Part shown: positions 3,453 through 28,474 of the stretch, in pieces
How positions within the stretch are numbered: position 1 is the first letter of the stretch
Layout: every line of letters starts with the position of its first letter
Source of the DNA: Bacteriovoracaceae bacterium
GTDB taxonomy: Bacteria > Bdellovibrionota > Bacteriovoracia > Bacteriovoracales > Bacteriovoracaceae
Direction: 5' to 3'
Assembly (NCBI GenBank): GCA_029865945.1
Contig: JARXAH010000055.1
Span: forward strand, 1 to 37,454
Length of the DNA: 37,454 nucleotides
Made by a program: the position numbers and the translations under genes
The notes under the pieces: generated by a model
Told to the model about the DNA's origin: nothing
What the model saw: the letters and a program-made list of their open reading frames with translations, nothing else
Database searches by the model: none

Positions 3453-3453
3453 A

Positions 3454-3654: not shown

Positions 3655-3683
3655 GTATTACCTCAACGCGAGTTGTAATACAT
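3653..3683. promoter_or_regulatory. Palindromic operator over the RHH gene start
   Basis: ATGTATTAC (3653-3661) and GTAATACAT (3675-3683) form a perfect 9-bp inverted repeat with a 13-base gap that itself contains AAC/GTT. The left arm overlaps the start codon and the right arm lies just upstream of the ribosome site of the minus-strand RHH gene. The position suits an operator by which the RHH protein represses its own operon. Binding is inferred. Confidence 0.5.
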
Positions 3684-3725
3684 CTTAAAACACTGTGTAA
3701 ACATGCTTTTCGGGAAATTGAAGAA

Positions 3726-11740: not shown

Positions 11741-11753
11741 AGGTTGAAAAAAA

Positions 11754-12769: not shown

Positions 12770-14125
12770 ATGATTTCAAGAGACATTTTGTTGAAAAAAC
12801 CATCCATTCTTTTCGTAGAAGATGACTCGCAGTATGCGACGTCAGTAATGTCATATTTTTCTGACTATAGTTGCTATCTTTCAACAAGTATTTCTTCGGC
12901 CCTAACTTTACTCAAAAATCACTCAATTGATCTTGCTCTTGTTGATATTCAACTTGGTAGTGGTAGTCCAACCGGAAAAGACTTAATTCCATTTCTCCAA
13001 AAATCCGGAATTCCAACTGTAATTTTATCTGGTAGCGATGACAATTTAACCATTAACGAATGTTACGATCTTGGATGTTTTGAATTTATAAAGAAAGGTG
13101 AAGAAGGGTTTGCCATCCCCTACCTGATTACAAAATATTTGCGTTCAGTTTCTCCAACAAAGCAGGAAGATTTTTTTAACTTTCAGTATGCAACCATCAA
13201 TCAGCAGCAAAAATCAAATATAATTAAATCCTTTTCGGCCATATTAACTGGAATTCCAATTAGCATTTTTGGTGAAACTGGCACGGGAAAATCTCATTTA
13301 GCGAGAGCACTTCATTTACTCTCGGGCAGAAGCGGCGAGTTTCATGAAATTAACTGTGCAAACTTAAGTCCCCTACTTGCTGAAAGTGAATTATTTGGGC
13401 ATGAAAAAGGCTCATTTACAGGTGCACATTCCCGAAAGACGGGATTATTTTTAAAGGCAAACAAAGGGACAATTTTTTTAGACGAGATTGCATCTCTAGA
13501 TATTGAAACTCAGGCAAAGCTACTTAAGGCAATCGAAGAAAAAGAATTTTATCCTGTCGGTGCTACTAAACCTGAAAAATCTGATTTCCAAATAATAAGC
13601 GCTAGTAATATTTCGATTGAAGCTCTTGTTGAAGATGGAAAGTTTCGCAGTGATCTCTATTTTCGTATCAACGGTGTGAAGATCGATTTGCTTCCGTTAA
13701 GAGAAAGAAAGGAGGACATCCTTCCTCTTGTATCTAAATTGCTAAAACCAAGAATTCTTGCATTTTCTGACAAGGCAAAGGACGCAATAATAAATCATAA
13801 TTGGTTAGGAAATATTCGTGAGCTTCAGTTTTTTTTACAAAACCTAACGGCCATTAGTGTTGGAAGAGTTGAAGAAATAACAGTTTTAAAATTATTACAA
13901 GAAAGTACAAAGCTAAAAGTCAGTGATCATCAACAAAAAGATATTTACGATATAGCTGTTCAAGAAGGACTCGATCATGCAACAGCAAAAGTTGAAGGCC
14001 AGGTTTTCAAAAGAGCAATCGATGATTTTAACGGTTCGATGCCAAAAATAATTGATTCACTGAAAATTTCAAAGCGAAAATACTATGCACTCTTAAACGA
14101 CCACCCTGTTGGTGGAAGTAATTAA
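12770..14125 (+). CDS. NtrC-family sigma-54 response regulator (module 2)
   Basis: A 451-residue regulator. The receiver has acidic Glu17-Asp18-Asp19 and phosphoacceptor Asp59 (ALVDIQLG). The AAA+ domain has Walker A GETGTGKS at 168-175 and the sigma-54 loop as GSFTGA at 214-219, a recognised variant of GAFTGA, with Walker B IFLDEIAS. The C-terminal helix-turn-helix is more divergent (MPKIIDSLKISKRKYYALL). It is the first gene of module 2 and ends 17 bases before the small-peptide gene. No sigma-54 promoter is visible in the 86 bases ahead, so the regulator may be made constitutively or by read-through from the nuclease genes. Its partner is likely the kinase at the end of the same gene run. 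Confidence 0.92.
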   Translation: MISRDILLKKPSILFVEDDSQYATSVMSYFSDYSCYLSTSISSALTLLKNHSIDLALVDIQLGSGSPTGKDLIPFLQKSGIPTVILSGSDDNLTINECYDLGCFEFIKKGEEGFAIPYLITKYLRSVSPTKQEDFFNFQYATINQQQKSNIIKSFSAILTGIPISIFGETGTGKSHLARALHLLSGRSGEFHEINCANLSPLLAESELFGHEKGSFTGAHSRKTGLFLKANKGTIFLDEIASLDIETQAKLLKAIEEKEFYPVGATKPEKSDFQIISASNISIEALVEDGKFRSDLYFRINGVKIDLLPLRERKEDILPLVSKLLKPRILAFSDKAKDAIINHNWLGNIRELQFFLQNLTAISVGRVEEITVLKLLQESTKLKVSDHQQKDIYDIAVQEGLDHATAKVEGQVFKRAIDDFNGSMPKIIDSLKISKRKYYALLNDHPVGGSN

Positions 14126-14142
14126 TAGCAAAAGGATGTTCT

Positions 14143-14325
14143 ATGAAGAAATTTGGTTCATTGGTTCAGGTAAAAATTTTGTGTGTTCTAACAATACTTG
14201 TAACAGGTGCACTAAACCTTTACGCCAAGACTGCAATGAATGGAAAAATCACTGAATCAAGCATCCAAAAAGATGGCATTGACAACTGTACTGGCGGCGG
14301 ATCTTCATGTGTAAGTAAGCCTTAA
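14143..14325 (+). CDS. 60-residue peptide precursor with Cys/Ser/Thr tail (candidate azoline-modified signal)
   Basis: The precursor begins MKKFGSLVQVKILCVLTILV, a basic start plus hydrophobic stretch, with a possible signal-peptidase site after LYA (residue 28). It ends DNCTGGGSSCVSKP, with Cys49, Thr50, Ser54, Ser55, Cys56 and Ser58 separated by glycines. Glycine-flanked Cys, Ser and Thr are the typical substrates of YcaO cyclodehydratases, which turn them into thiazolines and oxazolines, and such a YcaO gene lies two genes downstream. An AGGA ribosome site precedes the ATG. The neighbours encode a peptide-binding protein, kinase and sigma-54 regulator, so the product is a good candidate signal. 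A Sec-type leader on such a substrate is unusual. The alternative is a disulphide-linked peptide. Confidence 0.65.
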   Translation: MKKFGSLVQVKILCVLTILVTGALNLYAKTAMNGKITESSIQKDGIDNCTGGGSSCVSKP

Positions 14326-14352
14326 TAGAAGCGACTAAACAAATAGGAAAAT

Positions 14353-15843
14353 ATGCAAAAAATATCTTATCTGATTGTTTTTTGCTTACTTGTATACATT
14401 TTTATGAATAGTGATCTTGGTAAAAATACTTTCAAGTTTAAAGATGGGGATGCAATTAATGTTGCATTCCCATTTCGTTTACTCAAGAGTGATTCGTTAA
14501 TGCTAGATCCATTTAATACTGAGTATGCATTACAATATTATTTACTAGAAAATATTTCTTCAGGATTAATCAGAGATAATGTTCATTTTCCTGGAGGTTA
14601 CGAACCCGTTGTTGCAAAAAAATGGGAAAAATTAAACTCTCAAAAATGGCTTTTTATCATTGATGAAAATTCAAAATGGAGCGATGGAAATCCTATTACC
14701 TGCGAAGACGTAAGATGGAATTTGCAAAAAATTAAAGATTCACCAACGAGACATGCTTCAATATTAAAGAATCTAGAAACTATTGAATGTGATCAATCCA
14801 ACAGCAAGGTAGTTTTAAACTTTAGCGTGCCAGCCAACGAGTCATTACTTCATGAACTAAGTCTTGCTGACTCTGGAATTAAACACAAATCAAATCTTAT
14901 GGAAGGATGGAAAGTAACATCTGGCCCATATTTTGTAACAGAATATAGTTCTGAAAAAAGAATATTAAAACTGCAAGCAAACAAATTTTCGAGTTTAATA
15001 ACCGACAAATCACCAAAATCTGTGGTGTTTCATCACATTGGCAAAGAAGTTGATTTCGGAGAAATATTTACTAAAAGCAAGTTAGACCTCTTTCTTATAA
15101 ACGGTGAACTATTTATAAACAAAGTAAAGCCGTTAGAGCAAGCTGCTCCGATGATGCTTTCGAGTGCTCCTAACTGCATTCATTATTTATATTTTAATTC
15201 CAAAAATAAAGACTCAAATAATTTCAAAATAAGAGAATATTTTGCTCATTCGTTTAATGAAGTACTATCACAATTATCTTCACCGAAGTATTTAACGAGA
15301 ATTAAATCGCTGATCCCTCCAGGTTACGTCGGAGCGATTAAAAGTGATATTAATTTTGCAAATAATGAAGCTCCTAAGGAATTATTAAAGAGTAAATTCA
15401 AAATTCTTGTTGGAAAAGAATATACAGACATCAGTGATTACTTAAATCAAATCAAAGACAAACTAGATTCCCAGTTCAACTTAAAAATTGAATATATTTT
15501 TGCTAATGAATCTGATGATGATGATTGCTTTGGCAGAATACAATCTTTTGTCGGAAATCAAAGAGATCCACTTGGTTCATGGAATTTTTTGTATGGCTCT
15601 GAAAATGGCAAGCTTGCGATGTTTAAAGATAATGTTTCCTCTTTGCTTGAAAAAGTTGGCTCAATTGATAATGAAGAGCAAAAAAGGCAAATTCTCGAAG
15701 AAATTCATTTCAAGACTTTAAAAAATGTTTATGCCATTCCATTATGGATCACACAATCGGCCACTTTCTACAGTAAGCGTGTAAATTTAACTAAGTGGAA
15801 TACTTTTGACATGAGACTCAGAATTTATGATGTCATCCTCTAA
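14353..15843 (+). CDS. Oligopeptide-binding protein (SBP family 5), module 2
   Basis: A 496-residue protein with a short N-terminal hydrophobic segment (ISYLIVFCLLVYIFMNS) that would export or anchor it, followed by the family 5 binding-protein pattern: LDPFNTEYALQYYLLENISSGL, WEKLNSQKWLFIIDENSKWSDGNPITCEDVRWNL. It belongs to the same family as the binding protein of module 1 but is clearly diverged. No ABC permease or ATPase gene accompanies it, so it probably presents a peptide to the kinase two genes downstream. The YcaO start lies inside its last codons (17-base overlap), so translation of the two is coupled. The hydrophobic start lacks an obvious cleavage site; it may be a membrane-tethered form. 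Confidence 0.85.
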   Translation: MQKISYLIVFCLLVYIFMNSDLGKNTFKFKDGDAINVAFPFRLLKSDSLMLDPFNTEYALQYYLLENISSGLIRDNVHFPGGYEPVVAKKWEKLNSQKWLFIIDENSKWSDGNPITCEDVRWNLQKIKDSPTRHASILKNLETIECDQSNSKVVLNFSVPANESLLHELSLADSGIKHKSNLMEGWKVTSGPYFVTEYSSEKRILKLQANKFSSLITDKSPKSVVFHHIGKEVDFGEIFTKSKLDLFLINGELFINKVKPLEQAAPMMLSSAPNCIHYLYFNSKNKDSNNFKIREYFAHSFNEVLSQLSSPKYLTRIKSLIPPGYVGAIKSDINFANNEAPKELLKSKFKILVGKEYTDISDYLNQIKDKLDSQFNLKIEYIFANESDDDDCFGRIQSFVGNQRDPLGSWNFLYGSENGKLAMFKDNVSSLLEKVGSIDNEEQKRQILEEIHFKTLKNVYAIPLWITQSATFYSKRVNLTKWNTFDMRLRIYDVIL

Positions 15844-16765
15844 TGGCCAACCAAATACTTGGTCTCCAAACCTTAATTTTTTAAAGTCTGGTCAATTCAC
15901 AATAGACAACGGTTCTTTAAAAGAAAATATCACCTGGAACTTTAATAACTTAAAGTCTTTCCTTCCAGGCATAACAAACATCGAATGCGAAATTAATGCT
16001 TTTGGAGTTATGGCCAAAGGATATGGAGATGGCTTCTCACTTCACATTTCACTTATTAAAGCATTTGCAGAAGCATTCGAACGAGCGGTTATGCTTTCAA
16101 AGTGTCCTGAGGCTTCCTCGTCAAATGGGTTTTCGGCCGAGAGAAATCAGCTGTTAGCGATTTACTCATCACGCAATGAACTACTAGAACGCTCTATACT
16201 TTTAGAAGCTTGGAAAAATAAGTATGCTTTCTCATTTCACCATCATAAATCCATCACGGTAAAATTTTATGAATTTTTCCTAAAGCAGCGGAAGATAAAA
16301 TTAGAGTATTTCAAAATTAATTCTAATGCTGGTGAGGTCTTGGCAGTTCTTGTTCAACATTCAAATGGCCAATGCCTATTTGATAGTACCTATCTTGCTC
16401 CTGTGAAAAAACAGACTCAAGAAGCTGAGAGAAGACTTCTCTTATCTGTTAATCGAAATCTAGGTGTTTTTGATAAATGCAAGCTAGAAGCAGAATGGAA
16501 TTTACCCGAGAAGGGATTACCAGAGGATCATCGTAAATTCTATTTAAATCCGGCCAATAAAATTGCATTTGATTTTTTGAAAAAAATAAACAGCAATGAA
16601 AATAAATTAATCTTATCAGAAGTAGAAAAAATCAAATCGGAAGTAATTTTTGAACATCCTGGTCTTCCAGTTGTCGCCAATTCACATCACACCAAATGGA
16701 AAAAACTAGAATGGGGCAAGTGCTCAATTGATGGAATTAATCCTTGGCCTCATCCACTAGCATGA
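15827..16765 (+). CDS. YcaO-family cyclodehydratase-like protein with C-terminal PxPxP
   Basis: A 312-residue compact YcaO protein. The ATP-binding motifs of the family are visible in order: GDGFSLHISLIKAFAEAFER (conserved Glu-x-x-Glu-Arg at about 82-86), SSNGFSA at 98-104, and NELLERSILLEAW at 117-129, with a later QEAERRLLLSV. The last residues are NPWPHPLA, a clean PxPxP, which is diagnostic of azoline-forming YcaO enzymes that modify Cys, Ser and Thr in peptides. It is shorter than most. No separate ThiF/E1-like partner is encoded in the window, so it would act alone or with a distant partner. The substrate is probably the Cys/Ser/Thr-rich peptide encoded two genes upstream. Its stop overlaps the kinase start (ATGA). 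Confidence 0.8.
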   Translation: MMSSSNGQPNTWSPNLNFLKSGQFTIDNGSLKENITWNFNNLKSFLPGITNIECEINAFGVMAKGYGDGFSLHISLIKAFAEAFERAVMLSKCPEASSSNGFSAERNQLLAIYSSRNELLERSILLEAWKNKYAFSFHHHKSITVKFYEFFLKQRKIKLEYFKINSNAGEVLAVLVQHSNGQCLFDSTYLAPVKKQTQEAERRLLLSVNRNLGVFDKCKLEAEWNLPEKGLPEDHRKFYLNPANKIAFDFLKKINSNENKLILSEVEKIKSEVIFEHPGLPVVANSHHTKWKKLEWGKCSIDGINPWPHPLA

Positions 16766-18333
16766 GAATACGATCGCCATTTAAAACATGGGTCATTTTA
16801 AATTTCCTAGCATCAATTATCATCGGTGTCGGTCTATTTAATATTTATAACCAATCTCAAGAATACAATCAATCGATTGTTCGGACCTATTGGGACATAT
16901 TAACAAGATCAAGAATAAGTGATTTGAACCAAGGAAACTTTAGAAATTTTGTTGAAGGACTTGGCCCAATTTACAGAGATATGTTTATTGAAATTAGGCA
17001 AGAGAAACAGATTTTTAACTCTGGAAATTCTGATGGTAAAAATGTTTGCGAAAAAAGAAAACTCTTAACTTATTCTGAAGGAAGTGATGTAGAAATCACC
17101 ATGTGCATAAAAGATCTGATTCCCTATGGAAAGATGTTAGCATTTGCATCAATTTATCTTCTTTTCTCAATCATTACATTAATTAGTTTGCGAAGATTAC
17201 AACTTGATTTCTTAAATGGCCTATTTTCTTTTTTAGAGCAAACGGAAGTGAAATTAATTAAATTTAAAAATCTCAGTGGTCCGATAAAAAAATTAGAAGA
17301 AATCAAGAACTCGATCCTTGAATCTAAAAATTCTGCCATTATAAAAACTAAGCATGAAACTATTTTGCAGGTTTCAAAGCAAGTCGTTCACGATATTGGA
17401 TCTCCTCTTTCTGCGTTAGAAATCAATTTGAAAAGATTGCGAAACAGCTCAGGTGCACATGACCAAAAAAGCATTAATTTAATCGATCGAATTAAAGATA
17501 TTTTAGCTGATTTAAATAATGAGGAATTGGCCGTTAAAACCCACAACACTAAAGAGATCGCTAAACCAATTTCATGCATGATTTTTGATATTGTTAATGA
17601 ATTTAAGGTGAGATCAATTCCTGTTAAGTTTGATGTAAAGTATAAAGATTTATTTCTAACTTCTAATATCACTGAAAGTGATTTTAAACGAATCATTTCA
17701 AATTTAATTAATAATTCCTGGGATGCTTGTGACAAAGTCACTGGAAAAATTAATGTGAATATTTCCGAAGGCATAAACGTATCAATCATTGATAATGGCC
17801 AAGGAATTAGTGCTGAAGTATTACCCATGCTAGGGAAGCAAGTATTTACCGAAAAAGAAAATGGCAATGGGCTTGGAGTGATAGATGCATTTAGAAAAAT
17901 TGAAAGTTATGGTGGTAGAATTTCCTATGAATCTCAGATAGGTATAGGAACAAACGTTACTCTTTCAATTCCCAATAAAGAATTAAAAGTTATCTCACAT
18001 TCACAACTATTTTTAATCCATGATGATAATAATTTTGTTGAAGATTTTAAAAAGAAAACAAGTTATTTGCCAAATAAACTATCAGTTTTTAGCAATCCAC
18101 ATGATTTTATTTTTTGGTTTAAAAATAATACATTTTTGGTTCCATCATTTTATCTCATAGGACAATCTTTTATTAATGGCCAAGAGTCAGGGGCCAATCT
18201 CATCAAATTTTTAAAAATCTCACAAAATTCATGCCTTATCGTTGACGATCAAAATGAATTAGAAGAACGCAAGTTGTCGAGTCGAAATGGTTTAAAATGG
18301 CTTCCTAAAGATTTATTTATACATCTCATATGA
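16762..18333 (+). CDS. Histidine kinase with C-terminal degenerate receiver (module 2)
   Basis: A 523-residue kinase. A first membrane helix (about residues 9-28) and a second (about 124-145) flank a roughly 95-residue periplasmic region. The phosphoacceptor is His210 in QVVHDIGSPLSALEI, followed by N box NLINNSWDACD, G1 box IDNGQGIS and G2 box GNGLGVIDAF. After the ATPase domain, about 110 more residues resemble a receiver: LFLIHDDNNF keeps the acidic pair, but the place of the phosphoacceptor reads FYLIGQSF with no Asp. This pseudo-receiver may regulate the kinase. I chose the ATG at 16762 since it overlaps the YcaO stop; a TTG at 16744 is an inferior alternative. A strong hairpin follows the gene. 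Confidence 0.88.
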   Translation: MRIRSPFKTWVILNFLASIIIGVGLFNIYNQSQEYNQSIVRTYWDILTRSRISDLNQGNFRNFVEGLGPIYRDMFIEIRQEKQIFNSGNSDGKNVCEKRKLLTYSEGSDVEITMCIKDLIPYGKMLAFASIYLLFSIITLISLRRLQLDFLNGLFSFLEQTEVKLIKFKNLSGPIKKLEEIKNSILESKNSAIIKTKHETILQVSKQVVHDIGSPLSALEINLKRLRNSSGAHDQKSINLIDRIKDILADLNNEELAVKTHNTKEIAKPISCMIFDIVNEFKVRSIPVKFDVKYKDLFLTSNITESDFKRIISNLINNSWDACDKVTGKINVNISEGINVSIIDNGQGISAEVLPMLGKQVFTEKENGNGLGVIDAFRKIESYGGRISYESQIGIGTNVTLSIPNKELKVISHSQLFLIHDDNNFVEDFKKKTSYLPNKLSVFSNPHDFIFWFKNNTFLVPSFYLIGQSFINGQESGANLIKFLKISQNSCLIVDDQNELEERKLSSRNGLKWLPKDLFIHLI

Positions 18334-18343
18334 AATAAGAATA

Positions 18344-18372
18344 AATCGACCAATTGATATAATTGGTCGATT
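18344..18372. terminator. Bidirectional terminator hairpin between convergent genes
   Basis: AATCGACCAATT and AATTGGTCGATT form a perfect 12-bp stem with a 5-base loop, lying between the kinase (plus) and the last exported-protein gene (minus), which converge. A clear T-run is lacking on the plus strand; an ATTTATTCTTATTTC stretch follows on the minus strand. The position makes termination the likely role. Confidence 0.65.
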
Positions 18373-18378
18373 CATTCA

Positions 18379-19068
18379 TTAATCGACAGAAGCATCACTA
18401 TAGAGATCATCAAATATTCTAGGCTTAAGCATTTCGTTATCTTTGGTGGTCATGCCTCCAAAACGAACAACGATTTTATAGTCAACATTGATTAGTGGCC
18501 CAATAGCTCCTACTCCATCTTTGTTGACTGCTGTAAAGCTGTAGTAATATTGAAATGGAACCACGCCTCCATCAAACCAAAGTGGCCGGTAGGTTTTATC
18601 ACCACGTTTGTTTAGGATAAAGTTACAGGGAATCTCATCGCCAGCTTGTGAAGAATCGTGGGAACATCCATTCACCATGACAAAAAGATTCTGTGTTTCA
18701 TCTAATACAATTTTTGATGACGAAAAAGGAATCGGAGCAAACTTCGCCTTAGAGTTGATATCTCGAAGAATTATATCTTTTGATTCTTCAAAAGCTGCCA
18801 AATTGTGGACTGGTTTCACGATACTATTAATCAAATAGCCTCTATCGCCATTAACTTTTGTTTTGGTGTAATTGAAGCACCGATTACTCTTGCATGCAAT
18901 TTGAAGCGAACTTGGTGCGTACCAAAAGATGGTCGGATCTTGTGAATCCTTCCAAAAAGTAAACATGCGCTCTCCAAAAGCAAAATTTTCATTGAGAACA
19001 GGAACAGCTTGAGCAGCTCCGGAAATCAACATCAAAGTGATAAGTACATTTTTTATTGATCTATTCAT
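18379..19068 (-). CDS. Exported protein of unknown function, related to the 20271-21284 product
   Basis: About 229 residues starting MNRSIKNVLITLMLISGAAQA, a standard signal peptide with cleavage after AQA. The mature protein begins VPVLNENFAFGERMFTFWKDSQDPTIFWYAPSS. The opening and the phrase DSQDPTIFWYAP parallel VLYPDSQNPKLFYYFP-like text in the first gene of the same operon, so the two look like diverged paralogues. Cysteines in the mature part come in pairs and may form disulphides. I chose the ATG at 19068, eight bases inside the lipoprotein gene's end, rather than the frame's first ATG at 19104, because the signal peptide starts there. It is the last gene of a four-gene operon behind a sigma-54 promoter. 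No known domain is recognised. Confidence 0.75.
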   Translation of the reverse strand: MNRSIKNVLITLMLISGAAQAVPVLNENFAFGERMFTFWKDSQDPTIFWYAPSSLQIACKSNRCFNYTKTKVNGDRGYLINSIVKPVHNLAAFEESKDIILRDINSKAKFAPIPFSSSKIVLDETQNLFVMVNGCSHDSSQAGDEIPCNFILNKRGDKTYRPLWFDGGVVPFQYYYSFTAVNKDGVGAIGPLINVDYKIVVRFGGMTTKDNEMLKPRIFDDLYSDASVD

Positions 19069-19402
19069 TTTCTTGCTTCTTTTTAATGACACAACTGTCT
19101 TCACAGTCGATGTCTAGTTTTTGATCCAGCAACTGATAAGTTGCTTTCTTTTGGGAAGGCAAATTTTTATGAATAGAAAATAAAAGATCCTCTTTGGTCA
19201 TTCGCTTTTCCAAATTAAATTGATCTGCAAATTTTCTTATGCTTGCAACTTCTGTTTGGGTAAGGGAAGTGGTGTTGCCACTTGGTTCATTATTGCTTGT
19301 TTCAGGTTGAGTCGTACTAGTGCTCCCCCCACCTCCTCCACTACATGACACCATTGATAAAACCGCGATTAGAGATAAAACATTTATTTTTAATTTTTTC
19401 AT
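19061..19402 (-). CDS. Small lipoprotein with polyglycine/serine linker
   Basis: About 113 residues starting MKKLKINVLSLIAVLSMVSC; the Cys after SMVS fits a lipobox, so the protein should be lipidated and anchored in a membrane. Then follow a run of five glycines and a Ser/Thr/Asn-rich linker, and a C-terminal part with predicted helices and two cysteines (DIDCEDSCVIKKK) that could form a loop. The start at 19402 is supported by a GGAAGG ribosome site; the upstream MEGNF is not needed. Third gene of the exported-protein operon. No function is recognised. Confidence 0.7.
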   Translation of the reverse strand: MKKLKINVLSLIAVLSMVSCSGGGGGSTSTTQPETSNNEPSGNTTSLTQTEVASIRKFADQFNLEKRMTKEDLLFSIHKNLPSQKKATYQLLDQKLDIDCEDSCVIKKKQENE

Positions 19403-19429
19403 AAAATTGCCTTCCATTTAAGTAAATGA

Positions 19430-20239
19430 TTAATTGAATTTAATTTTGAAGTTGGGAGTAAAAAACTCATCGGTGGAGTTTAGCCTATCCTCACTGATTC
19501 CGAAGGAAAGCTTTGCCAACTGAAATGAATTTTTTGAATCATCAATTAAATCAGTAAAGCTTCTCACTGGAACTTTTTCTTCATAATTCACACAAACCTG
19601 AAAAAATTTTGCAAATAAATATTTCTGCTCAGATTCAGTAATGGAATTCTGCTCCGACATTTGCTGAAATTTTTCAAATACCGAAAATATTCCCTTATTT
19701 TTCCTGTCATCGGCAAAGTTGCATGGACTAGTTGCCAATTGAATACTTGTCTCTTGAAGGCGTGTTCTTGAAAACGGTGCATTCATAACTGAAACGTAGG
19801 CTTTACGGTTAGCCATAGACGATTTAATTTGTTTTAAAAGTCCTGCTGAAATTTGAAAGGTCTGTGCATCTTCCCAAGATGTTTCAGCAGTGCGAAACGG
19901 CATTTTAAATGTGCTTCCATCAACAAATTGAAGTTCAATGTAGTAACCGTTGTCATCAATAAGATTTGGAGTAATTGGTGCGTACAAAATATTATATCCA
20001 GGATACTTTCGTTTTAACGAATCAAAAAGTGGACGGGCAGCATCGGTATCTTGCTTCACGTTGATAGTAATGGCCGCATAATTTTCGGATGGCACCTCAA
20101 GTAAACTAAAATCCAAAGCAAAATCTGTTCTTACATATATTTTTTTGGATTTTTGAAGAACATCATAATCTTGAGTCGTTTGCGACCAAGACTGAACGGA
20201 AAAAAACAAAAATACTAAACTCATCAATTTTATAAACAT
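19430..20239 (-). CDS. Secreted protein of unknown function
   Basis: A 269-residue protein with a clear signal peptide (MFIKLMSLVFLFFSVQSWSQ, probable cleavage after SWS). No domain is recognised. The mature part is mixed alpha/beta in appearance, with a YVRTDFALDFSLLEVPSENYAAITINVKQDTDA strand-rich start and two cysteines (SPCNFADD and FFQVCVNYEE) far apart. An AGGAGA ribosome site precedes the ATG. It lies 31 bases behind the first gene of the sigma-54-driven operon and 27 bases ahead of the lipoprotein gene. Its partners are all exported, which suggests a shared periplasmic or surface assembly. Confidence 0.7.
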   Translation of the reverse strand: MFIKLMSLVFLFFSVQSWSQTTQDYDVLQKSKKIYVRTDFALDFSLLEVPSENYAAITINVKQDTDAARPLFDSLKRKYPGYNILYAPITPNLIDDNGYYIELQFVDGSTFKMPFRTAETSWEDAQTFQISAGLLKQIKSSMANRKAYVSVMNAPFSRTRLQETSIQLATSPCNFADDRKNKGIFSVFEKFQQMSEQNSITESEQKYLFAKFFQVCVNYEEKVPVRSFTDLIDDSKNSFQLAKLSFGISEDRLNSTDEFFTPNFKIKFN

Positions 20240-20270
20240 GTTGCTCTCCTTAAATAATGATTAAAAATTA

Positions 20271-21284
20271 TTAGGCATCAATTTCGCTATAGAGTTCTGG
20301 GTAGTCCTTTAAAATAGTTCCAAGGCTCATTGTAGTACAGTAGTTAAGATCCAAGGGCTCACTACTATCAAGAATGATATGGCGATCTCGATCTTCCTCA
20401 ATTCTTGTATAACTCAGTCCCCAGTTGGCCGACACTTCACTTCTGCGATTAGGAAGTTGTGGTTCAAAAAATCTGGCCATCATTTTTTCAGTCAAACTTT
20501 CAAGGTAAGCGCGCTCAGTTTCTGTTCCGCCTTCCATTTTGATTACAATGCTGCCACTTTCTTTTAATTTTTCAAGTTCCGCTCGAACTTCAAAACGTTG
20601 AAACCATTTTCTTCCAGATGCTCTGGCCATGAAATGCTCGTACACTTTGTGATAATTCAGTGTCACTTCGCCATGAAATTTAGGAGTGGTTCCACTCACG
20701 GTATAGCAATATTGAAACGTAGTACCATTGGATTGATTTGTCACTAATGCGGCCTTTAAAATGGCAGCACCGACAGGAGTAAGAGTTGCAGAGAATCCAA
20801 ATGGATCTTCTGGGCGTCCAGCTCGGTCAGGAAGAGCTACTTCTTTAAAAATCCCAGATAAAAATTCACGTTCACCAGCTTTTTTGGACGTTAAAGTGAA
20901 ATAGCTGCTTCTTACGGGAAGAGGGGCCAACTGAAATCCTGCATCACGTTTCAATTTTAAAGCATCGGCTTGCGCTTTAGTATTTTCAAGTCCAAGAACA
21001 CCTGAAATATAACCACCCACTCCATCTACGGGTTGGTTGAGTTTTACCATCGTAAAATCTGGAATTCCTTTTTCATCTTTTAAAACTTTTCCCGTGTTTG
21101 GAAAGTAATAAAATAGTTTTGGATTTTGGCTGTCAGGATAAAGGGTCACCGATTTGAGATCTTCAGAAACAATAGAATCGCCAGAGAGCCCTAGTACCGG
21201 GATAGCGTGTACTACTTGATTGAGGAACAGAAATATTCCAATCATTACAGATTTGGAATTAGAGCAATTAATTTGGGGTAACAT
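20271..21284 (-). CDS. Exported protein of unknown function, first gene of the sigma-54 operon
   Basis: A 337-residue protein with a signal sequence ending near VVHA, so the mature start is IPVLGLSGDSIVSEDLKSVTLYPDSQNPKLFYYFPNTG. The start resembles the product of the last gene of the operon (VPVLNEN ... DSQDPTIFWYAP), pointing to duplication. A mid part (GEVTLNYHKVYEHFMARASG, then ELEKLKESGSIVIKM) has amphipathic helices and beta segments, but I do not recognise the family. A GGAG ribosome site precedes the ATG, and a near-perfect sigma-54 promoter lies 65 bases upstream. The product is probably periplasmic or outer surface. The function is unknown. Confidence 0.75.
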   Translation of the reverse strand: MLPQINCSNSKSVMIGIFLFLNQVVHAIPVLGLSGDSIVSEDLKSVTLYPDSQNPKLFYYFPNTGKVLKDEKGIPDFTMVKLNQPVDGVGGYISGVLGLENTKAQADALKLKRDAGFQLAPLPVRSSYFTLTSKKAGEREFLSGIFKEVALPDRAGRPEDPFGFSATLTPVGAAILKAALVTNQSNGTTFQYCYTVSGTTPKFHGEVTLNYHKVYEHFMARASGRKWFQRFEVRAELEKLKESGSIVIKMEGGTETERAYLESLTEKMMARFFEPQLPNRRSEVSANWGLSYTRIEEDRDRHIILDSSEPLDLNYCTTMSLGTILKDYPELYSEIDA

Positions 21285-21348
21285 AGATCCGTCTCCTTTT
21301 AAAGATGAATAAAGATTTGTTCAATATGTCGCGACGGATTTAATAGAC

Positions 21349-21365
21349 TGCAACCATGGTGCCAA
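21349..21365 (-). promoter_or_regulatory. Near-perfect sigma-54 promoter of the exported-protein operon
   Basis: Read on the minus strand, TTGGCACCATGGTTGCA matches the -24/-12 consensus TTGGCAC-N5-TTGCA at every conserved base and has the exact spacing. Transcription should start near 21338, about 54 bases before the ATG at 21284. The activator is presumably one of the two NtrC-type regulators of the window. Confidence 0.85.
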
Positions 21366-21439
21366 CGAAAGGAATCTGAATTTCAAGGTCTTATGGCGTT
21401 AAAAAATTTTCATTTTCCCATTTTGAAAAAATGAATCCC

Positions 21440-21500
21440 AATTTGAGAAAACTATCATTTATCATTTTCTCAAATTTTCGTTTTAATTATCATGAGAATC
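21440..21500. promoter_or_regulatory. Palindromic enhancer candidate between divergent operons
   Basis: AATTTGAGAAAA (21440-21451) and TTTTCTCAAATT (21465-21476) form a perfect 12-bp inverted repeat with a 13-base gap; a third half site ATGAGAATC is at 21492-21500. The group lies 75-150 bases upstream of the sigma-54 promoter at 21349, where NtrC-type activators normally bind, and shares the TGAGAA core with the candidate enhancer at 9651. A smaller inverted repeat (TTCATTTT/AAAATGAA) sits at about 21407-21434. The remaining bases of this 390-base intergenic region show no gene. Confidence 0.5.
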
Positions 21501-21976: not shown

Positions 21977-22417
21977 ATGAATCAAACAGAAAAATTTCAC
22001 ACTGTGAAACCTAGCGTGCCAAAACTCTATCGCTTCCAGCTTTACTTGGGAGAAAAAAATGAAAATGGAAAAATTCAAAAATCTAAAATTGTGGGAATGA
22101 GCTATCTAGCAGAAGGACATGGGACGTACACACTAAGACTTTGGACTTTTCTGAATACAAACTTCTACATGGTCATGAGCAAAACGAATGCTTCGGATTG
22201 TCTGCTTATGAGTAAAGAAGCAAACAAGAATGAATATTCAAAAACTAAGCATCACTGGAACGTCATCGGCAATGGAAAAGTTAATGCCACCCAAAACTGC
22301 ATTGAATTGAATTTTGATTTATTTGAAAAACCAATTTACATGAGCATATTTCCTGAAAGTAATACCACGCCGTCAGGAACTAGAAGCAATGAACATGATT
22401 TATCTTTGGTTTCATAA
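21977..22417 (+). CDS. Conserved-looking protein of unknown function in the conjugation operon
   Basis: A 146-residue cytoplasmic protein with an AAAAGGAG ribosome site before the ATG. It looks beta-rich: LYRFQLYLGEKNENGKIQKSKIVGMSYLAEGHGTYTLRLWTFL, then NFYMVMSKTNASDCLLMSKEA, which could be a small barrel or a single-strand-binding-like fold; this is a guess from pattern only. The gene lies 27 bases after the zinc-ribbon gene and 25 bases before the pilin-like gene, so it belongs to the transfer operon. No function is recognised. Confidence 0.6.
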   Translation: MNQTEKFHTVKPSVPKLYRFQLYLGEKNENGKIQKSKIVGMSYLAEGHGTYTLRLWTFLNTNFYMVMSKTNASDCLLMSKEANKNEYSKTKHHWNVIGNGKVNATQNCIELNFDLFEKPIYMSIFPESNTTPSGTRSNEHDLSLVS

Positions 22418-22442
22418 AAATAATTTCAAAAAGGAAATACTA

Positions 22443-22730
22443 ATGAAAAACAAAAATCTTATAGAACTATTTATCTTATGTCTCTTGGCCATTTTGATTA
22501 CTCCTTGCCTGGCCCATGCAGGACTTGAAACTAGCTTAGTCGCCATAAAATCAAAACTAACAATTGTCATATTACCGCTTCTATCAGTGATAGGAATTGC
22601 CCTAGCAGGGACTTCGTTTTTCACCGGCAATCCCAATGCAAAGCAACACATTGCCTACGCAGTCATTGGTTCGATTATTGGATTTGGTGCGCAGGGAATC
22701 GTTGACTTTATTTCACAAACAGTTCGATAG
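22443..22730 (+). CDS. VirB2/TrbC-like pilin precursor
   Basis: A 95-residue protein: signal peptide LIELFILCLLAILITPCLAHA, then two hydrophobic helices (LTIVILPLLSVIGIALAGTSFF and HIAYAVIGSIIGFGAQGIVDFI) separated by a short polar loop. Size, signal peptide, two helices and position just before a VirB3-like gene fit VirB2/TrbC major pilins, which build the conjugative pilus. The chosen ATG has AAAGGAAA ahead; an in-frame ATG 18 codons upstream lies in the previous gene and is unlikely. The sequence itself is weakly conserved, so the call rests on architecture and context. Confidence 0.7.
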   Translation: MKNKNLIELFILCLLAILITPCLAHAGLETSLVAIKSKLTIVILPLLSVIGIALAGTSFFTGNPNAKQHIAYAVIGSIIGFGAQGIVDFISQTVR

Positions 22731-22738
22731 GAGGATGC

Positions 22739-23074
22739 ATGGATGAGCAAGGGTTACTAACAAGTAAAGTACCTCGTGCGCTAGAGATAAGAAGCACATT
22801 ATTTGGATTTGATTTACCAGATCTATTGATTATTTTTTTTAATCTAGCGATTACTAATTTAGTTTTTGGTGGAACGAACTTTCGCTATTCACTAGTTTGG
22901 GGAACAACAATTACTCTGGCCCTTTTTTTGTATTTTTCTAAAAAGGGAAAACCAGAAAACTACTTGCACCACTACTGCGAATACCTAATTAGTCCAACAT
23001 ACTTTTCAGCAGGTGAACATGATCTCTCCTATAAACCATTCAAAAGGAATAATAATGGTAAACACGAAAATTAA
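22739..23074 (+). CDS. VirB3/TraL-like type IV secretion protein
   Basis: A 111-residue protein beginning with KVPRALEIRSTLFGFDLPDLL, the short proline-arginine start and membrane-proximal pattern of VirB3/TraL, followed by two adjacent membrane helices (LLIIFFNLAITNLVFG and YSLVWGTTITLALFLYF). VirB3 is an inner-membrane component linked to the VirB4 ATPase. A strong AGGAGG site precedes the ATG, and the gene overlaps the VirB4 gene by 20 bases, the usual neighbour. Confidence 0.75.
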   Translation: MDEQGLLTSKVPRALEIRSTLFGFDLPDLLIIFFNLAITNLVFGGTNFRYSLVWGTTITLALFLYFSKKGKPENYLHHYCEYLISPTYFSAGEHDLSYKPFKRNNNGKHEN

Positions 23075-25571
23075 TAATGAATCAAGTATGGCAATGCAAA
23101 TTCCTTATTGGGAATTCTTTGATGATCCTATTGGACACGTAGTCATTAATGACGGTTCTATTGTGGCCGGAATTAAAGTTGGCCTCATTGATATTGAATG
23201 CTTTGATGAAAGAAAAATAAATCAACTAACTTCGGGACTTAGGTCCTTACTCGATTCAATCTCGGAGGGAGTTACCGTTCAGTTTTTAATGAGTATTAAG
23301 TCTGATTATGCAGATTTTCTTAACAATAGTTTGCATCAAGGGCAAGAGGACATTCATCCTCTTATCCAAAAAATTGCAATGGGTAGGAAGATAAATTTTA
23401 CTGAAGAAGTTGATAACGGTGAACTTTATAGGCCTGAGCTTTATGTTTTTTTTAAAACGAGTCCCATTGATAAGAAGACGATGAACTTTTTTAAAAAGAA
23501 GGATGAGTTTTCTAAAGAATCATTTCAATCTTATGAAGAAGTTTTGGAGTTGTTAATTCAAAATCTAGAAAATTTAAAATCAAATTTTGATTCCCTTGGA
23601 ATTCATTCTGAAGTTTTGAGTCAAAAGGAAATTACAGCAAAGATTTATCATTTTCTAAATCCAAAAAGATCACTTAGTGAACCACTGCCAGAAATAAAAA
23701 CTTTAAATGAAAATTTCTTTGATCAAGATGAAGTATCACAAGAAGCTTGGCTTGCAGACACTTCGCCAAGAGAACAACTTTGTTTCGGTGATCTCGTTTT
23801 AGGATTGGAACATTACAGTCTTGATTCCAACTACCATAAAGTAATTACGCTAAAGACTTTGCCTGAGATGACATTTGCGGGACAAATTTCCAATTTCTTA
23901 AGAATGCCATTTCATTATGATTTATTTTTAACTTTTGAAGTCCCCATGCAGTCAGCAGAGTTTAGTAAGCTTCAGCAAAAAAGAAAAATGGCCCACTCAC
24001 TAACTATCACTCAAGGCAATCAGGCATCTGATTTAGAAAGTGAATCCAAACTCAGTTCTACCGAGGAACTTATTAGGGAATTGCTCAATACTGGTCAAAG
24101 AATTTATGCCGTTCAAATGTCCATCATCTTAAGAGCAAGTGCAAATGCTGGAGGAGAAAAAATTCTTAACCGTCAGGTAAGAGATGTCCTTTCACGCTTT
24201 AGATCCCTGCAAGGAGCTGAGGGATTAGAGGAAACTGTTGGAGCCTGGAAAATTGCGAGGGGAAATCTACCAGCTGCACCACTAGAGCTAGTAAGGGCAA
24301 AGAAGATGAAAACCCATAATCTAGCGGATTTCCTACCTATCTATGGGCCACGTGTTGGAGATGATGACCCTGTTGTTATCTTTAAAAATAGGCTTAATGG
24401 ACTTGTTGGATTTAATTCCTTTGATCCTGCTCTTCCCAATTATAATTCTCTTGTCACTGGTTCGTCAGGAGCAGGGAAAAGCTTTTTAAATAACTGCATT
24501 TTGCTTCAAGAATTAAACCGAGGCCTAAAAGTTTTTATTATTGATATCGGTGGGTCATATAAAAAAATCACTGAAGCCTTAGAAGGTCAATATATTGAAA
24601 TGAATTTAAGCGATGAATATAAAATTAATCCATTTCATATTCATAATATTTCAGAAGGTCCAAGCAATCAAAAATTAAAATCTCTCCTAGCAATTATTGA
24701 AAGTATGGTGGGAGAAAATGAAAAAACAAAACTTTTAAAACTTGATCGCGCCATTTTGGAAAAATCTATCATTGAACTTTATAAATTTCATGCAAAGAAG
24801 GGAGAGATTCCAACACTGACTGATCTAGCATTGTTGTTAAGCTCATCTGATGAAGAGTCTATGAGGACAATCTCTAAAATGCTCTACCTTTGGACTGGTG
24901 ATCGTCCCTATGGAAAGTTACTTGATGGGCAGGGATCACTAAATTCAGAGGCAAGAATATGCACTTTTGATCTCAAGGGTCTTTCTTCTTACCCAGATTT
25001 ACAAAGTGTCATGATTCTCCTTTTGACTGATTTTATTTTAACTCAAATTGAAATGGATAAAAGTCAGCGTAAAAGAATCATTCTTGATGAAGCGTGGGAA
25101 CTTTTAAAATCTGATGCGGCAGCAAATTTCATGGAGTACTGCGCACGTACTTTAAGAAAAACGGGATCAGGTATTACGTTTATTACTCAAGGAATTGAAG
25201 AGATTGCGGCCAGTCCCATTGGTTCGGCCATTCTAAATAATACAGCGACAAAATTTATTATGCTTCAGCGGGGTGATTCTGAAATATTAAAAAATACCCT
25301 AAAGCTTAATTCTCAGGAATTAAATCTCATTCATTCACTTGAACAAAGAAAAGGAAAATATTCTGAAGGCTTCATGATTGAAGGAGATCATAGGCAGGTC
25401 GTAAGAATATTTCCCAACCCCATTGAATACTGGCTAGCAACTAGTGATGCCACTGATAACAATTATCTTAATCAACTTCAATTAAGTGGAATGTCACTCG
25501 TTGAGGCCATTGAATTAGCGGCCCATGATTATCCCCAAGGTTTCTCTCAAAAAAAGGGAGATAAATCATGA
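23055..25571 (+). CDS. virB4: VirB4/TrbE-type conjugation ATPase
   Basis: An 838-residue ATPase of the VirB4/CagE/TraC family that energises pilus assembly and substrate transfer at the inner membrane. The Walker A is GSSGAGKS at about 469-476, Walker B is IILDEAWELL, and the late ITQGIEEIAAS and KFIMLQRGD segments are typical of the family. The N-terminal half (IPYWEFFDDPIGHVVINDGSIVAGIKV onward) matches the CagE-type region. I chose the ATG at 23055; the earlier in-frame ATG lies deep in the VirB3 gene. No other secretion ATPase of the VirB11 kind is present in the window, so VirB4 and the coupling protein would be the only motors. It overlaps the next gene by four bases. Confidence 0.93.
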   Translation: MVNTKINNESSMAMQIPYWEFFDDPIGHVVINDGSIVAGIKVGLIDIECFDERKINQLTSGLRSLLDSISEGVTVQFLMSIKSDYADFLNNSLHQGQEDIHPLIQKIAMGRKINFTEEVDNGELYRPELYVFFKTSPIDKKTMNFFKKKDEFSKESFQSYEEVLELLIQNLENLKSNFDSLGIHSEVLSQKEITAKIYHFLNPKRSLSEPLPEIKTLNENFFDQDEVSQEAWLADTSPREQLCFGDLVLGLEHYSLDSNYHKVITLKTLPEMTFAGQISNFLRMPFHYDLFLTFEVPMQSAEFSKLQQKRKMAHSLTITQGNQASDLESESKLSSTEELIRELLNTGQRIYAVQMSIILRASANAGGEKILNRQVRDVLSRFRSLQGAEGLEETVGAWKIARGNLPAAPLELVRAKKMKTHNLADFLPIYGPRVGDDDPVVIFKNRLNGLVGFNSFDPALPNYNSLVTGSSGAGKSFLNNCILLQELNRGLKVFIIDIGGSYKKITEALEGQYIEMNLSDEYKINPFHIHNISEGPSNQKLKSLLAIIESMVGENEKTKLLKLDRAILEKSIIELYKFHAKKGEIPTLTDLALLLSSSDEESMRTISKMLYLWTGDRPYGKLLDGQGSLNSEARICTFDLKGLSSYPDLQSVMILLLTDFILTQIEMDKSQRKRIILDEAWELLKSDAAANFMEYCARTLRKTGSGITFITQGIEEIAASPIGSAILNNTATKFIMLQRGDSEILKNTLKLNSQELNLIHSLEQRKGKYSEGFMIEGDHRQVVRIFPNPIEYWLATSDATDNNYLNQLQLSGMSLVEAIELAAHDYPQGFSQKKGDKS

Positions 25572-26263
25572 GGAAAAAATTCTTAACTTTAATTTTGGGC
25601 TCATTACTTTTAACTGCAACTCCAGTTCGTGCAGATATCTGGGGTGGTGACGTCATAGTATTAACTAAAATTTTAATTCAGAGCATTCAGCAACTTTATC
25701 AACTGAAATTAATTTTTCAAAATGGTTCGGATACCTTGGGATTACTTAGAGATATTAATAAAGGCATTCGTGATGGCCTAAATATCATTCAAATTATTAA
25801 TCCTAAATTTAATCCTGGAATCTTTGGAAAATTAGAAAATGTAGAATCTGTTCTTAATGCCATTGAAGAACTCTACGGAATTATTCCCATGACTGGTGAA
25901 TATCGCCTTCAAGCTGCACAGGATAGATCTGTTTCTGAGAGCATTGCCATGAACGGAAAGATCTTCCGCTTTGCTGATGATGTTGATGAGGAAAGTAGAA
26001 GAATTATAAATCATGCACGTCTTGTAAATCCCCAGGGAGCAGCAAAACTCACAGCGCAATCAGTAGCGGTCTTAATTGGGGTTACAACCCAAATGCTTAG
26101 AACAAATTCCATGATGCTCAAAATGATGGCCGAAAGTATGGCGCTAGAAAATCGAAAAGAAAAACTGCAATCAGCGCAATTTAAAACTCAGTACGAAGGC
26201 CTAACCAATGCACTCGGACGTCTACCGAAAGAAACTAACCTTGTACCTCTTGAAGGCCAATAA
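25568..26263 (+). CDS. VirB5/TrbJ-like periplasmic secretion protein
   Basis: A 231-residue protein with signal peptide MRKKFLTLILGSLLLTATPVRA and a mature start DIWGGDVIVLTKILIQSIQQLYQLKLIFQNG. The long helical N-terminus with repeated leucine and glutamine and the helical C-terminus (QMLRTNSMMLKMMAESMALENRKEKLQ) are like VirB5/TrbJ, minor pilus-tip proteins. The ATG overlaps the VirB4 stop (ATGA). Placement between VirB4 and a VirB6-like gene is the standard order. The sequence match is pattern-based. Confidence 0.7.
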   Translation: MRKKFLTLILGSLLLTATPVRADIWGGDVIVLTKILIQSIQQLYQLKLIFQNGSDTLGLLRDINKGIRDGLNIIQIINPKFNPGIFGKLENVESVLNAIEELYGIIPMTGEYRLQAAQDRSVSESIAMNGKIFRFADDVDEESRRIINHARLVNPQGAAKLTAQSVAVLIGVTTQMLRTNSMMLKMMAESMALENRKEKLQSAQFKTQYEGLTNALGRLPKETNLVPLEGQ

Positions 26264-26280
26264 ATTCCAAGGAGGCAAAC

Positions 26281-27162
26281 GTGCCACAATTTGAACTGTT
26301 AGGAACTCTGAGCAAGGATTTGCATCAAGAGTTTGTACGAATTTATTATTTGATGCTGCCTGTATTTTTCGCACTATCAATTGCCATGACATGGTTTAAA
26401 CACCCACAAGGAAGTCCAGAATTTATTGATGTTCTAAAGAGAGCCATTATCTCTACAGTGCTACTAGTTGCTTTTCCTGAAATTAGTAAGGCCATAATTT
26501 TTGTGGCTGACGGGATTACATTACGAATCGATAATATTAATAGCTTAGATAATATCATCCGAATGGCCGAGGCAAAATCGCAAAGCTATTCCTTTTCGGC
26601 CAAAAGCATTTTGCTGCAATTTAATGATTTAATCATCGCAACCCTTTCATTTCTAAGTTACCTCGTCTTATACGTTGCAAGGTATCTCACTATTGCCATG
26701 TATCATTTCTTCTGGATTTTTTTCATGATTTCAGCTCCGTTATTATTACTTTTTAATATGTTAGCGAGCACTTCCGAAATCACGAAAAATCTTTTCAAAG
26801 GAATGATCGAGGTCGCTAGTTGGAAAATCGTGTGGGCCATTCTTGGTGCCATGCTGACTGCTCTCTCCTTTGGTGATGCCTATAAGACGGAGGGAAATTA
26901 TCTCACCTTAATGGTTATGAATTTTGTAATTGCAACTGCGATGCTCATGACTCCGATGATCGTAAAATCTATTGTAGGAAGTGGACTACAAGCTATGTCG
27001 ACAACTCTGGGAGCTTCAAGTATTGCGGCCATGGCAGCGGTACCAGCGAAAGCATTGCAAATCCAACAAGCAAGTCGTGGCGCTCTCAATTCTGGTAAGT
27101 CCTACTTGAATAACCGCTTTGAAAACAAGAAACCCATTCAAAATTTTAAAGGGAGCAAATAA
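26281..27162 (+). CDS. VirB6/TrbL-like polytopic membrane protein
   Basis: A 293-residue protein starting at GTG with GGAGG before it. It has about five or six membrane helices, including YYLMLPVFFALSIAMTW, LIIATLSFLSYLVLYVA, a hydrophobic FFWIFFMISAPLLLLFNMLA and ILGAMLTALSF, then a C-terminal region VVGSGLQAM-like rich in small residues. VirB6 forms part of the inner-membrane channel. The position after VirB5-like and before VirB8-like genes supports the call. Its stop overlaps the next start by one base (TAATG). Confidence 0.75.
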   Translation: MPQFELLGTLSKDLHQEFVRIYYLMLPVFFALSIAMTWFKHPQGSPEFIDVLKRAIISTVLLVAFPEISKAIIFVADGITLRIDNINSLDNIIRMAEAKSQSYSFSAKSILLQFNDLIIATLSFLSYLVLYVARYLTIAMYHFFWIFFMISAPLLLLFNMLASTSEITKNLFKGMIEVASWKIVWAILGAMLTALSFGDAYKTEGNYLTLMVMNFVIATAMLMTPMIVKSIVGSGLQAMSTTLGASSIAAMAAVPAKALQIQQASRGALNSGKSYLNNRFENKKPIQNFKGSK

Positions 27163-27746
27163 TGTCACTACTAAACTTAAAAGATCATAAGTTTCCAAAA
27201 ATGATGAGCAGCCTTATGCACTCAAATCAGATTCTAAAAATGTTTTCTTTTTTCACTTTTCTTGTTTGCATAATTTCACTTGGTCTTGTAAGTAGTTTTT
27301 CAAATCAAGATCCCATCATTTTATCCTTTGATCTCGATGGAAAAGAAATAAAATCCGCTAAACTACCTCCTCCTGAAAAACTTATCGCAGAAGGTGTGAA
27401 TCATTATCTTCAATTTCGGTATAACTGGAATCCAAACGATGTAAAAAATCAATTGCAAAAATCTGCAAAATTTATTAGCCCACAAAGTTTCAATGCATTT
27501 ACAGAAGCAATGAACACCGTTGAGAAATTCTCTCTTGAAAAACAAGTGTCGCAAAAAATTTTTGTATCGAGTCTCAAAGTCAATTTAGAAAGTAGTACCG
27601 TCGCCATCACTGGTGACCGAATAACATCCATTCAAGGCATGAAGGCGGCCGGTGATTTAAAGTTGCTACTTAATTTTGAAAGTGGTCCAAGGACTAAAGA
27701 CAATCCATGGGGAATTTATATCACGAAAGAAAGAGAGGAATTGTAA
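27162..27746 (+). CDS. VirB8/TraE-like inner-membrane secretion protein
   Basis: A 194-residue bitopic protein: a cytoplasmic N-terminus of about 35 residues, one membrane helix (MFSFFTFLVCIISLGLVSSF) and a periplasmic domain of about 130 residues with YLQFRYNWNPNDVKNQLQKSAKFISP, the pattern of the VirB8/TraE NTF2-like fold. VirB8 is a nucleation factor for the secretion core complex. Overlaps of one base at each end (TAATG) show tight coupling with the VirB6-like and VirB9-like genes. The assignment rests on topology and context more than on strong sequence signature. Confidence 0.65.
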   Translation: MSLLNLKDHKFPKMMSSLMHSNQILKMFSFFTFLVCIISLGLVSSFSNQDPIILSFDLDGKEIKSAKLPPPEKLIAEGVNHYLQFRYNWNPNDVKNQLQKSAKFISPQSFNAFTEAMNTVEKFSLEKQVSQKIFVSSLKVNLESSTVAITGDRITSIQGMKAAGDLKLLLNFESGPRTKDNPWGIYITKEREEL

Positions 27747-28474
27747 TGAAAAATTTTATTATAATCTTTTTATCAATCTTAAGTATTAAGAATGGAAATA
27801 CTTCTACAAAAGTTCGTCACGTTGTTGTTAGAGGTGACCAAATTATAACAGTTAGAACAGCCGTGGGGATTGCAACGATTATCCAAGTTCCCGATCGTCC
27901 TAATAGTGTTGTGGTTGGTGATCAGGAATCCTTCAAAGTTGAATACCTTGATCAAGCAATTACCATTAAGCCTCTTGCGAATACTGCTAAGACAAATTTA
28001 TACATCTACACCGATTGGAAAAGATTTAATGTTGAATTAGTTTCTGGGAAAAATGTGATCTCTGATTATGTTGTTTATCTTGAAAACCCAAAGGAACTTC
28101 CAGATAAGAATCCTGCGAAGAAAGAACAAATTTCTTGGATGTATTACAAAAATGAAATGTCTAACGATGAATTAACTTTTGAAACCAAAAAAGTGGCAAA
28201 AGTAAAAGGCGGCTTAGTACTTATTGAATTTCACTTGAGATCTACGAAGAAAATGAATTTTGATCCAGGTTGGATCTGGGTAACACAATCTAGACGCACT
28301 CGCCCCATTCATAATTTGGTTTTAGGGTCGCTTGTTCTTTCTAAAAAATATCCTTCTCAAGGAATATTACAAATTTTGGCAAGTGATCTAAATGCAAGTG
28401 AACCATTTAATATTGAACTCAGACGTAAGCATCGTTCCTCCATCACCATCAAGAGGATGACTTTATGGAAATAA
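27746..28474 (+). CDS. VirB9/TraK-like core complex protein
   Basis: About 242 residues with an N-terminal signal-like segment (MKNFIIIFLSILSIKNG) and a beta-rich body: KVRHVVVRGDQIITVRTAVGIATIIQVPDRPNSVVVGDQESFKVEYL, then ITIKPLANTAKTNLYIYTDWKRFNVEL, typical of the VirB9/TraK N-terminal domain. This protein forms the outer-membrane ring with VirB10 and a lipoprotein. The ATG at 27746 shares a base with the VirB8-like stop. It overlaps the VirB10 gene by ten bases. The C-terminal domain is somewhat short. Confidence 0.75.
   Translation: MKNFIIIFLSILSIKNGNTSTKVRHVVVRGDQIITVRTAVGIATIIQVPDRPNSVVVGDQESFKVEYLDQAITIKPLANTAKTNLYIYTDWKRFNVELVSGKNVISDYVVYLENPKELPDKNPAKKEQISWMYYKNEMSNDELTFETKKVAKVKGGLVLIEFHLRSTKKMNFDPGWIWVTQSRRTRPIHNLVLGSLVLSKKYPSQGILQILASDLNASEPFNIELRRKHRSSITIKRMTLWK

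Follow-up and report, generated by a model that had tools for sequence, protein, structure and literature searches.

We analysed a stretch of 37,454 nucleotides from a Bacteriovoracaceae bacterium (contig JARXAH010000055.1, positions 1 to 37,454, forward strand), which we call the window throughout. Four genes for exported proteins are arranged in it as an operon on the minus strand, behind a sigma-54-type promoter and next to a group of sensory genes, here called module 2. The operon and its flanking signals are as follows.

18339..18377, minus strand: strong intrinsic terminator with a 17-pair stem and a T-rich tail, separating the operon from the kinase gene that converges on it
18379..19068, minus strand: gene 4 (P4), exported protein of 229 amino acids (aa), paralogue of the N-terminal half of gene 1
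19061..19402, minus strand: gene 3 (P3), lipoprotein of 113 aa with lipobox MVSC and two conserved C-terminal Cys
19430..20239, minus strand: gene 2 (P2), exported protein of 269 aa, fast evolving, with two conserved Cys
20271..21284, minus strand: gene 1 (P1), exported protein of 337 aa, with an N-terminal domain common to gene 4 and two conserved Cys
21349..21364, minus strand: sigma-54 promoter (-24/-12), exact consensus TGGCAC-N5-TTGCA, ending 64 bp before the start of gene 1
21440..21476, strand not assigned: perfect 12-bp inverted repeat AATTTGAGAAAA-N13-TTTTCTCAAATT, found by repeat search, its centre 94 bp upstream of the -24 box

All four genes lie on the minus strand, with gaps of 31 nt and 27 nt and then an overlap of 8 nt. 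By inspection, genes 1, 2 and 4 begin with a hydrophobic stretch followed by a plausible cleavage site. A first-pass annotation of this DNA had assigned a signal peptide or a lipobox to all four genes, and this holds also for the 12 homologous operons that we aligned with that of the window (13 aligned operons in all): all homologues look exported, and the lipobox of gene 3 is present in 13/13. Two Cys are kept in every aligned member of genes 2, 3 and 4, not counting the lipobox Cys of gene 3, and in nearly all members of gene 1; the operon proteins are probably disulphide-bonded. The paralogy noticed earlier between two of the genes was confirmed for genes 1 and 4 (hhalign probability 99.8%, E 1e-27); for gene 2 as a possible distant relative of gene 1 the hhalign probability was only 21%.

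The consensus-perfect sigma-54 promoter that the same annotation had placed ahead of the four genes is likewise present. The sequence TTGGCACCATGGTTGCA is located on the minus strand of the window, and the 16-mer TGGCACCATGGTTGCA at 21349-21364 (minus strand) is the sole zero-mismatch sigma-54 match in the 37 kb, with GG at -24 and GC at -12 spaced 10 bp apart within TGGCAC-N5-TTGCA. The arithmetic estimate of chance matches, for eleven specified bases on both strands of 37 kb, is about 0.02; in 500 dinucleotide shuffles of the upstream region the score of the operon promoter was never reached. Exact TGGCACN5TTGC occurs 6 times genome-wide, which is about the chance level for 3.08 Mb; the weight of the match therefore rests on its placement, not on its count. 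One rpoN gene was found in each of the 8 genomes tested, the source genome included, and from the promoter sequence and the presence of this gene transcription of the operon is predicted to be sigma-54-dependent. An inverted repeat as good as that at 21440-21476 arose in 22 of 2000 shuffles of the 316-bp region; its half-site TTTGAGAAAA occurs elsewhere in the window at chance level. Activator sites of sigma-54 promoters lie 80-150 bp upstream (PMC7910581), a range that the distance of the repeat fits, and we regard the repeat as a candidate upstream activator site.

The gene-1 family was found in 22 of 368 genomes of the phylum Bdellovibrionota, scattered over several families. The whole operon, with genes of the same order and kinds, recurs in 12 further genomes and in G301, G317 and G280 (about 15 other Bdellovibrionota genomes), and in G342 three of the four genes are present before the contig ends; to judge from this gene order, the four genes form a conserved unit. 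Two more members are encoded in the source genome: on C1 a gene-1 version that is a lipoprotein and stands alone, and on C86 a second relative of gene 4. Relatives also form an operon on a plasmid of Ruegeria sp. YS9, next to genes for a MobA/MobL relaxase and a coupling protein; one of these relatives, a homologue of the gene-1 domain, is fused to a peptidoglycan-binding domain (PF01471, E 5e-12), which speaks for a probable location of the operon proteins in the cell envelope. Multi-gene clusters of Hydrogenophaga and Anaerolineae and of Pararhizobium and Ruegeria plasmids have the gene-1 domain in common with the window (profile E down to about 1e-35); they differ in that their proteins are mostly larger, and no obvious signal peptide is seen at the start of those from Hydrogenophaga and Anaerolineae. 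In the Anaerolineae cluster (L072) several large multi-domain proteins with the gene-1 domain are encoded in a row, and in that of Hydrogenophaga (L070) one such protein is encoded beside a subtilase.

As the first-pass annotation had stated, the four proteins have no recognised function: searches of Pfam, NCBIfam and PADLOC matched no family, and none of the transfer-protein families of Pfam and NCBIfam was hit. In PHROGs the only matches were weak ones of genes 2 and 3 (best E 1e-4), to families without an assigned function. No relatives were found in viral contigs in one scan, and none in phages for a homologue from G148. Of the remote-homology and structure checks suggested earlier, the former brought out the paralogy of genes 1 and 4, and the latter gave no reliable known fold for genes 1 and 2. 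Solved structures searched by sequence contained no credible relative; the structure models have a mean predicted local distance difference test score (pLDDT) of 67 for gene 1 and 70 for gene 2, and with these models the best VIA Z in the PDB was 4.8 for gene 1 and 6.5 for gene 2 (IrmA). The IrmA fold for gene 2 was not used, nor were the secretin and arrestin folds among the top Foldseek rows for gene 1 (E of about 2e-3 or worse, TM-scores <0.2). Our literature searches turned up no paper on this four-gene system; it is an uncharacterised envelope system, patchily distributed through Bdellovibrionota.

On one side the operon is flanked by module 2, on the other by a divergent conjugation operon:

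12770..14125, plus strand: response regulator of module 2 with a sigma-54 interaction domain (Pfam), whose relatives adjoin the operon elsewhere; proposed activator
14143..14325, plus strand: small open reading frame (ORF) of 60 aa with a signal-peptide-like N-terminus and a Cys-containing tail, without NCBIfam match; candidate signal precursor from its sequence only
14353..15843, plus strand: family-5 extracellular solute-binding protein (PF00496, E 5e-17); proposed signal receptor
15827..16765, plus strand: protein of 312 aa with weak resemblance to YcaO (PF02624, E 0.048, 13.4 bits, below the cutoff of 25.7)
16744..18333, plus strand: histidine kinase of module 2 (PF02518, E 2.5e-15), in which two putative membrane segments enclosing a periplasmic stretch are seen by eye
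21977..31054, plus strand: type IV secretion (conjugation) operon with TrbC, TraC, TraE, CagX, TrbI and a coupling protein, divergent from the four-gene operon

The regulator of module 2 is of the NtrC type, with a receiver domain (PF00072, E 2e-8) and an AAA+ sigma-54 interaction domain (PF00158, E 2e-53). Its GAFTGA-like loop reads GSFTGA, as in the regulator beside the operon of G280; the regulator of G223 has GAFTGA. The C-terminus has a helix-turn-helix-like tail by eye, with no match to a helix-turn-helix family of Pfam.

The connection between this regulator and the operon comes mainly from other genomes. In G223, G280 and G201 a sigma-54 response regulator that the tree places in the clade of the module-2 regulator adjoins the operon divergently, and the regulators of module 2 and of the G280 operon are reciprocal best hits. 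Sigma-54 activators number 12-29 per genome in genomes of 2.4-5.4 Mb (18 in the source genome); since G223, G280 and G201 hold 12 to 17 each, chance would seldom produce such an adjacency in any single one of them, although these three genomes are related to one another and are not independent samples. In the tree the module-2 regulator groups with the operon-adjacent regulators and with regulators beside other sigma-54-type promoters. For 14 intergenic units, 13 belonging to this clade and one to a regulator next to it, the summed best -24/-12 score was 182, compared with a mean of 135 and a maximum of 146 in 500 shuffles; taken singly, scores above all 500 shuffles are reached by the site in the window, by those of C36 and C19 and by that of the type IV secretion system (T4SS) of G201; the sites of G223_C1 and of the G223 and G201 operons do not stand out. 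Perfect inverted repeats of 10-15 bp are found upstream of the promoters of the G223 operon, the G201 operon and the G201 T4SS. The neighbours of the G223 regulator include, a few genes on, a kinase and a family-5-like solute-binding protein (21% identity to that of module 1, a second sensory set in the window). This region of G223 (L047:1-7605) is a putative signal-making and sensing cassette, with regulator, kinase, binding protein, a GNAT-like protein (by eye, no Pfam match) and a putative transporter; its enzymes are an ATP-grasp ligase (PF13535, E 2e-23) and a metallo-beta-lactamase-fold enzyme (E 4e-15). In G112 a radical-SAM protein with a C-terminal Cys cluster (L051:10971-12293) is divergent from the operon and is followed by a kinase and a sigma-54 regulator, the latter falling outside the module-2 group.

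The same clade also heads operons of other kinds. In the source genome closely similar regulators stand at two conjugation operons (C83, C75) and at two exported-protein operons (C36, C19), and the G280 operon regulator is sister (100/99) to the regulator beside a conjugation-like operon of G201; to judge from these neighbourhoods, the regulator group serves both conjugation and envelope operons. The C36 and C19 operons are of a different make from the four-gene operon, each encoding a lipoprotein along with a protein of 542 or 539 aa; the 542-aa proteins were rejected as relatives of gene 1 (probability about 20%), so that the likeness is one of operon type only. In the C36 unit (L124:7049-13003) a perfect sigma-54 site and a divergent regulator precede genes for proteins of 542, 332, 162 and 174 aa and for a lipoprotein; C19 (L123:2875-8910) is its close relative, with its own divergent regulator and a 14/15 site. 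The conjugation operons of C83 (L121) and C75 (L122) each contain a small serine recombinase gene, and C75 also encodes a PF13458-like binding protein (below its cutoff) and a kinase. In the G201 locus (L128:1861-17949) the conjugation-like operon is preceded by a kinase, a PF04392 binding protein, the regulator, a perfect inverted repeat of 15 bp and a sigma-54 site scoring 14/15. In L120, L125, L127 and L129 a clade regulator has a sigma-54 site directly downstream and then small genes with a similar look in four genomes. A core set that has a sigma-54 site of its own is kept in four genomes.

Sequence comparison thus establishes the conserved operon, its promoter and a regulator clade that recurs beside sigma-54-type promoters. 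On this basis we consider it fairly probable that the operon is a sigma-54-dependent set of exported envelope proteins switched on by the NtrC-type two-component regulator of module 2. An external signal would be bound by the solute-binding protein (14353..15843), which once loaded would act on the module-2 kinase; the kinase would phosphorylate the regulator, and the regulator would bind the inverted repeat about 94 bp upstream and drive sigma-54 RNA polymerase at the operon promoter. The product would be three proteins, each with a cleavable signal peptide, and a lipoprotein by which they might be held at a membrane. How the signal travels, which site the regulator binds and that the four proteins act together as one complex are our inferences. 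The first-pass annotation had seen in the operon the output of its neighbouring sensor module, and as a probable target it retains that role; that the signal is a peptide is suggested by the receptor family and the 60-aa ORF, and the product may be a surface structure.

Several observations weigh against control by module 2. The backbone of the regulator tree is unresolved, and the sigma-54-like sites of the G223, G280 and G201 operons are individually weak (p 0.10, 0.03 and 0.10). The 21440-21476 repeat does not recur at the module promoters, which have no half-site in common with the operon, and 9-mers revealed no enhancer common to the sister units C36, C19, C75 and C83 (chance level). In the window the regulator gene does not adjoin the operon but is 7-8 kb away, its start being about 8.5 kb from that of the operon, and the neighbouring kinase gene runs towards the operon. 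Copies in other families are mostly without such a regulator nearby and without a good sigma-54 site, the operon of G342 and a divergent relative in G163 being exceptions; because of this distribution, control of the sigma-54/module type appears to be a feature of some copies of the operon, not of the operon as such.

The missing common half-site, the distance of the regulator gene and the 18 activator genes of the genome would suit an unrelated activator, the sensor modules being mere neighbours on a mobile element; we regard this as quite improbable, since regulators of one and the same clade adjoin the operon in three further genomes and almost all units of that clade have a sigma-54 site. 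The earlier statement that the operon adjoins module 2 is correct, but the added claim that no other sigma-54 regulator is close is not quite right, since the contig also encodes the regulator of module 1 (5175-6557), some 15 kb away from the promoter. The operon might answer to module 1, or to both modules. In G146, a distant genome, a divergent version of the operon is immediately followed by a module-1-like set (alpha/beta hydrolase, ICMT, solute-binding protein, kinase), whose solute-binding protein is 29% identical to that of module 1 (E 1e-65); the operon regulators of G223, G280 and G201 are, however, nearer to module 2 (241, 258 and 171 bits) than to module 1 (170, 172 and 126 bits), and the module-1 regulator falls outside the module-2 clade, though on a long branch. 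Control by module 1, alone or together with module 2, is improbable in our judgement.

Two further explanations are compatible with control by module 2. The four proteins could be accessories of conjugation that serve mating contact or surface exclusion, or that belong to the transfer apparatus as an envelope part, and would be under common control with the T4SS, as the divergent conjugation operon, the regulators heading C83, C75, C36 and C19, the sister relationship of the G280 and G201 regulators and the relaxase and coupling protein beside the Ruegeria homologues would suggest. For the majority of the other operon copies, which belong to several families, the stretches read contain no match to the conjugation genes of the window, and the conjugation operon of the window has no sigma-54 site (best score 10/15), so that its co-regulation with the four-gene operon is not supported by the promoter sequences; such a role seems rather unlikely. 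The signal, on the other hand, could be a small molecule or another environmental ligand instead of a peptide, for which the two enzymes of the G223 module and the binding proteins of other families in sister units (PF13458, below cutoff, in C75; PF04392 in G201) can be adduced. The solute-binding proteins of the window belong to family 5, many members of which bind peptides, and the small ORF between the regulator and receptor genes begins with what resembles a signal peptide; a non-peptide signal is a real possibility that we hold with some reserve.

Elsewhere in the window, module 1 (2109-9447) encodes a binding protein, a kinase, the sigma-54 regulator, a hydrolase, ICMT and a radical-SAM protein. 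Between the modules (9764-12683) lie genes for a DUF2779 protein and then a NucS-like nuclease-domain protein, and beyond the conjugation genes one for a large serine recombinase (33337-35106). The contig may belong to an integrated conjugative element; no relaxase was seen in it, and the ends of the element were not searched for.

The proposed pair resembles Nla28 of Myxococcus xanthus and its sigma-54 promoters, where an NtrC-type regulator with receiver and sigma-54 interaction domains, a -24/-12 promoter, a repeat 80-150 bp upstream and a cognate kinase are also found (PMC7910581). It differs from Nla28-type pairs in that the target is an uncharacterised exported-protein operon and the kinase gene is linked to that of a solute-binding protein. 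In the LuxP-LuxQ-LuxU-LuxO system of Vibrio a periplasmic binding protein acts via a kinase on a sigma-54 regulator. Positions 12770-18333 of the window, and a similar set in G223, are like LuxPQ/LuxO in encoding a periplasmic binding protein with a kinase and a sigma-54 regulator, a likeness of gene content; here, by contrast, the binding protein is of family 5, no LuxU was noticed, and the output would be structural genes instead of small RNAs.

More speculatively, and with little confidence, these loci could be seen as a new kind of signal-gated envelope apparatus of Bdellovibrionota and mobile elements. Conjugation operons and operons of an undescribed family of exported proteins would exchange a cassette made up of a solute-binding protein, a kinase and a sigma-54 regulator, so that extracellular signals would time both DNA transfer and the making of a contact structure anchored in the membrane and perhaps in peptidoglycan. 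At the level of the window, an uncharacterised four-gene envelope system gains a testable regulator; the fact that the same clade heads conjugation operons in the same genomes bears on whether extracellular signals may jointly control gene transfer and envelope remodelling.

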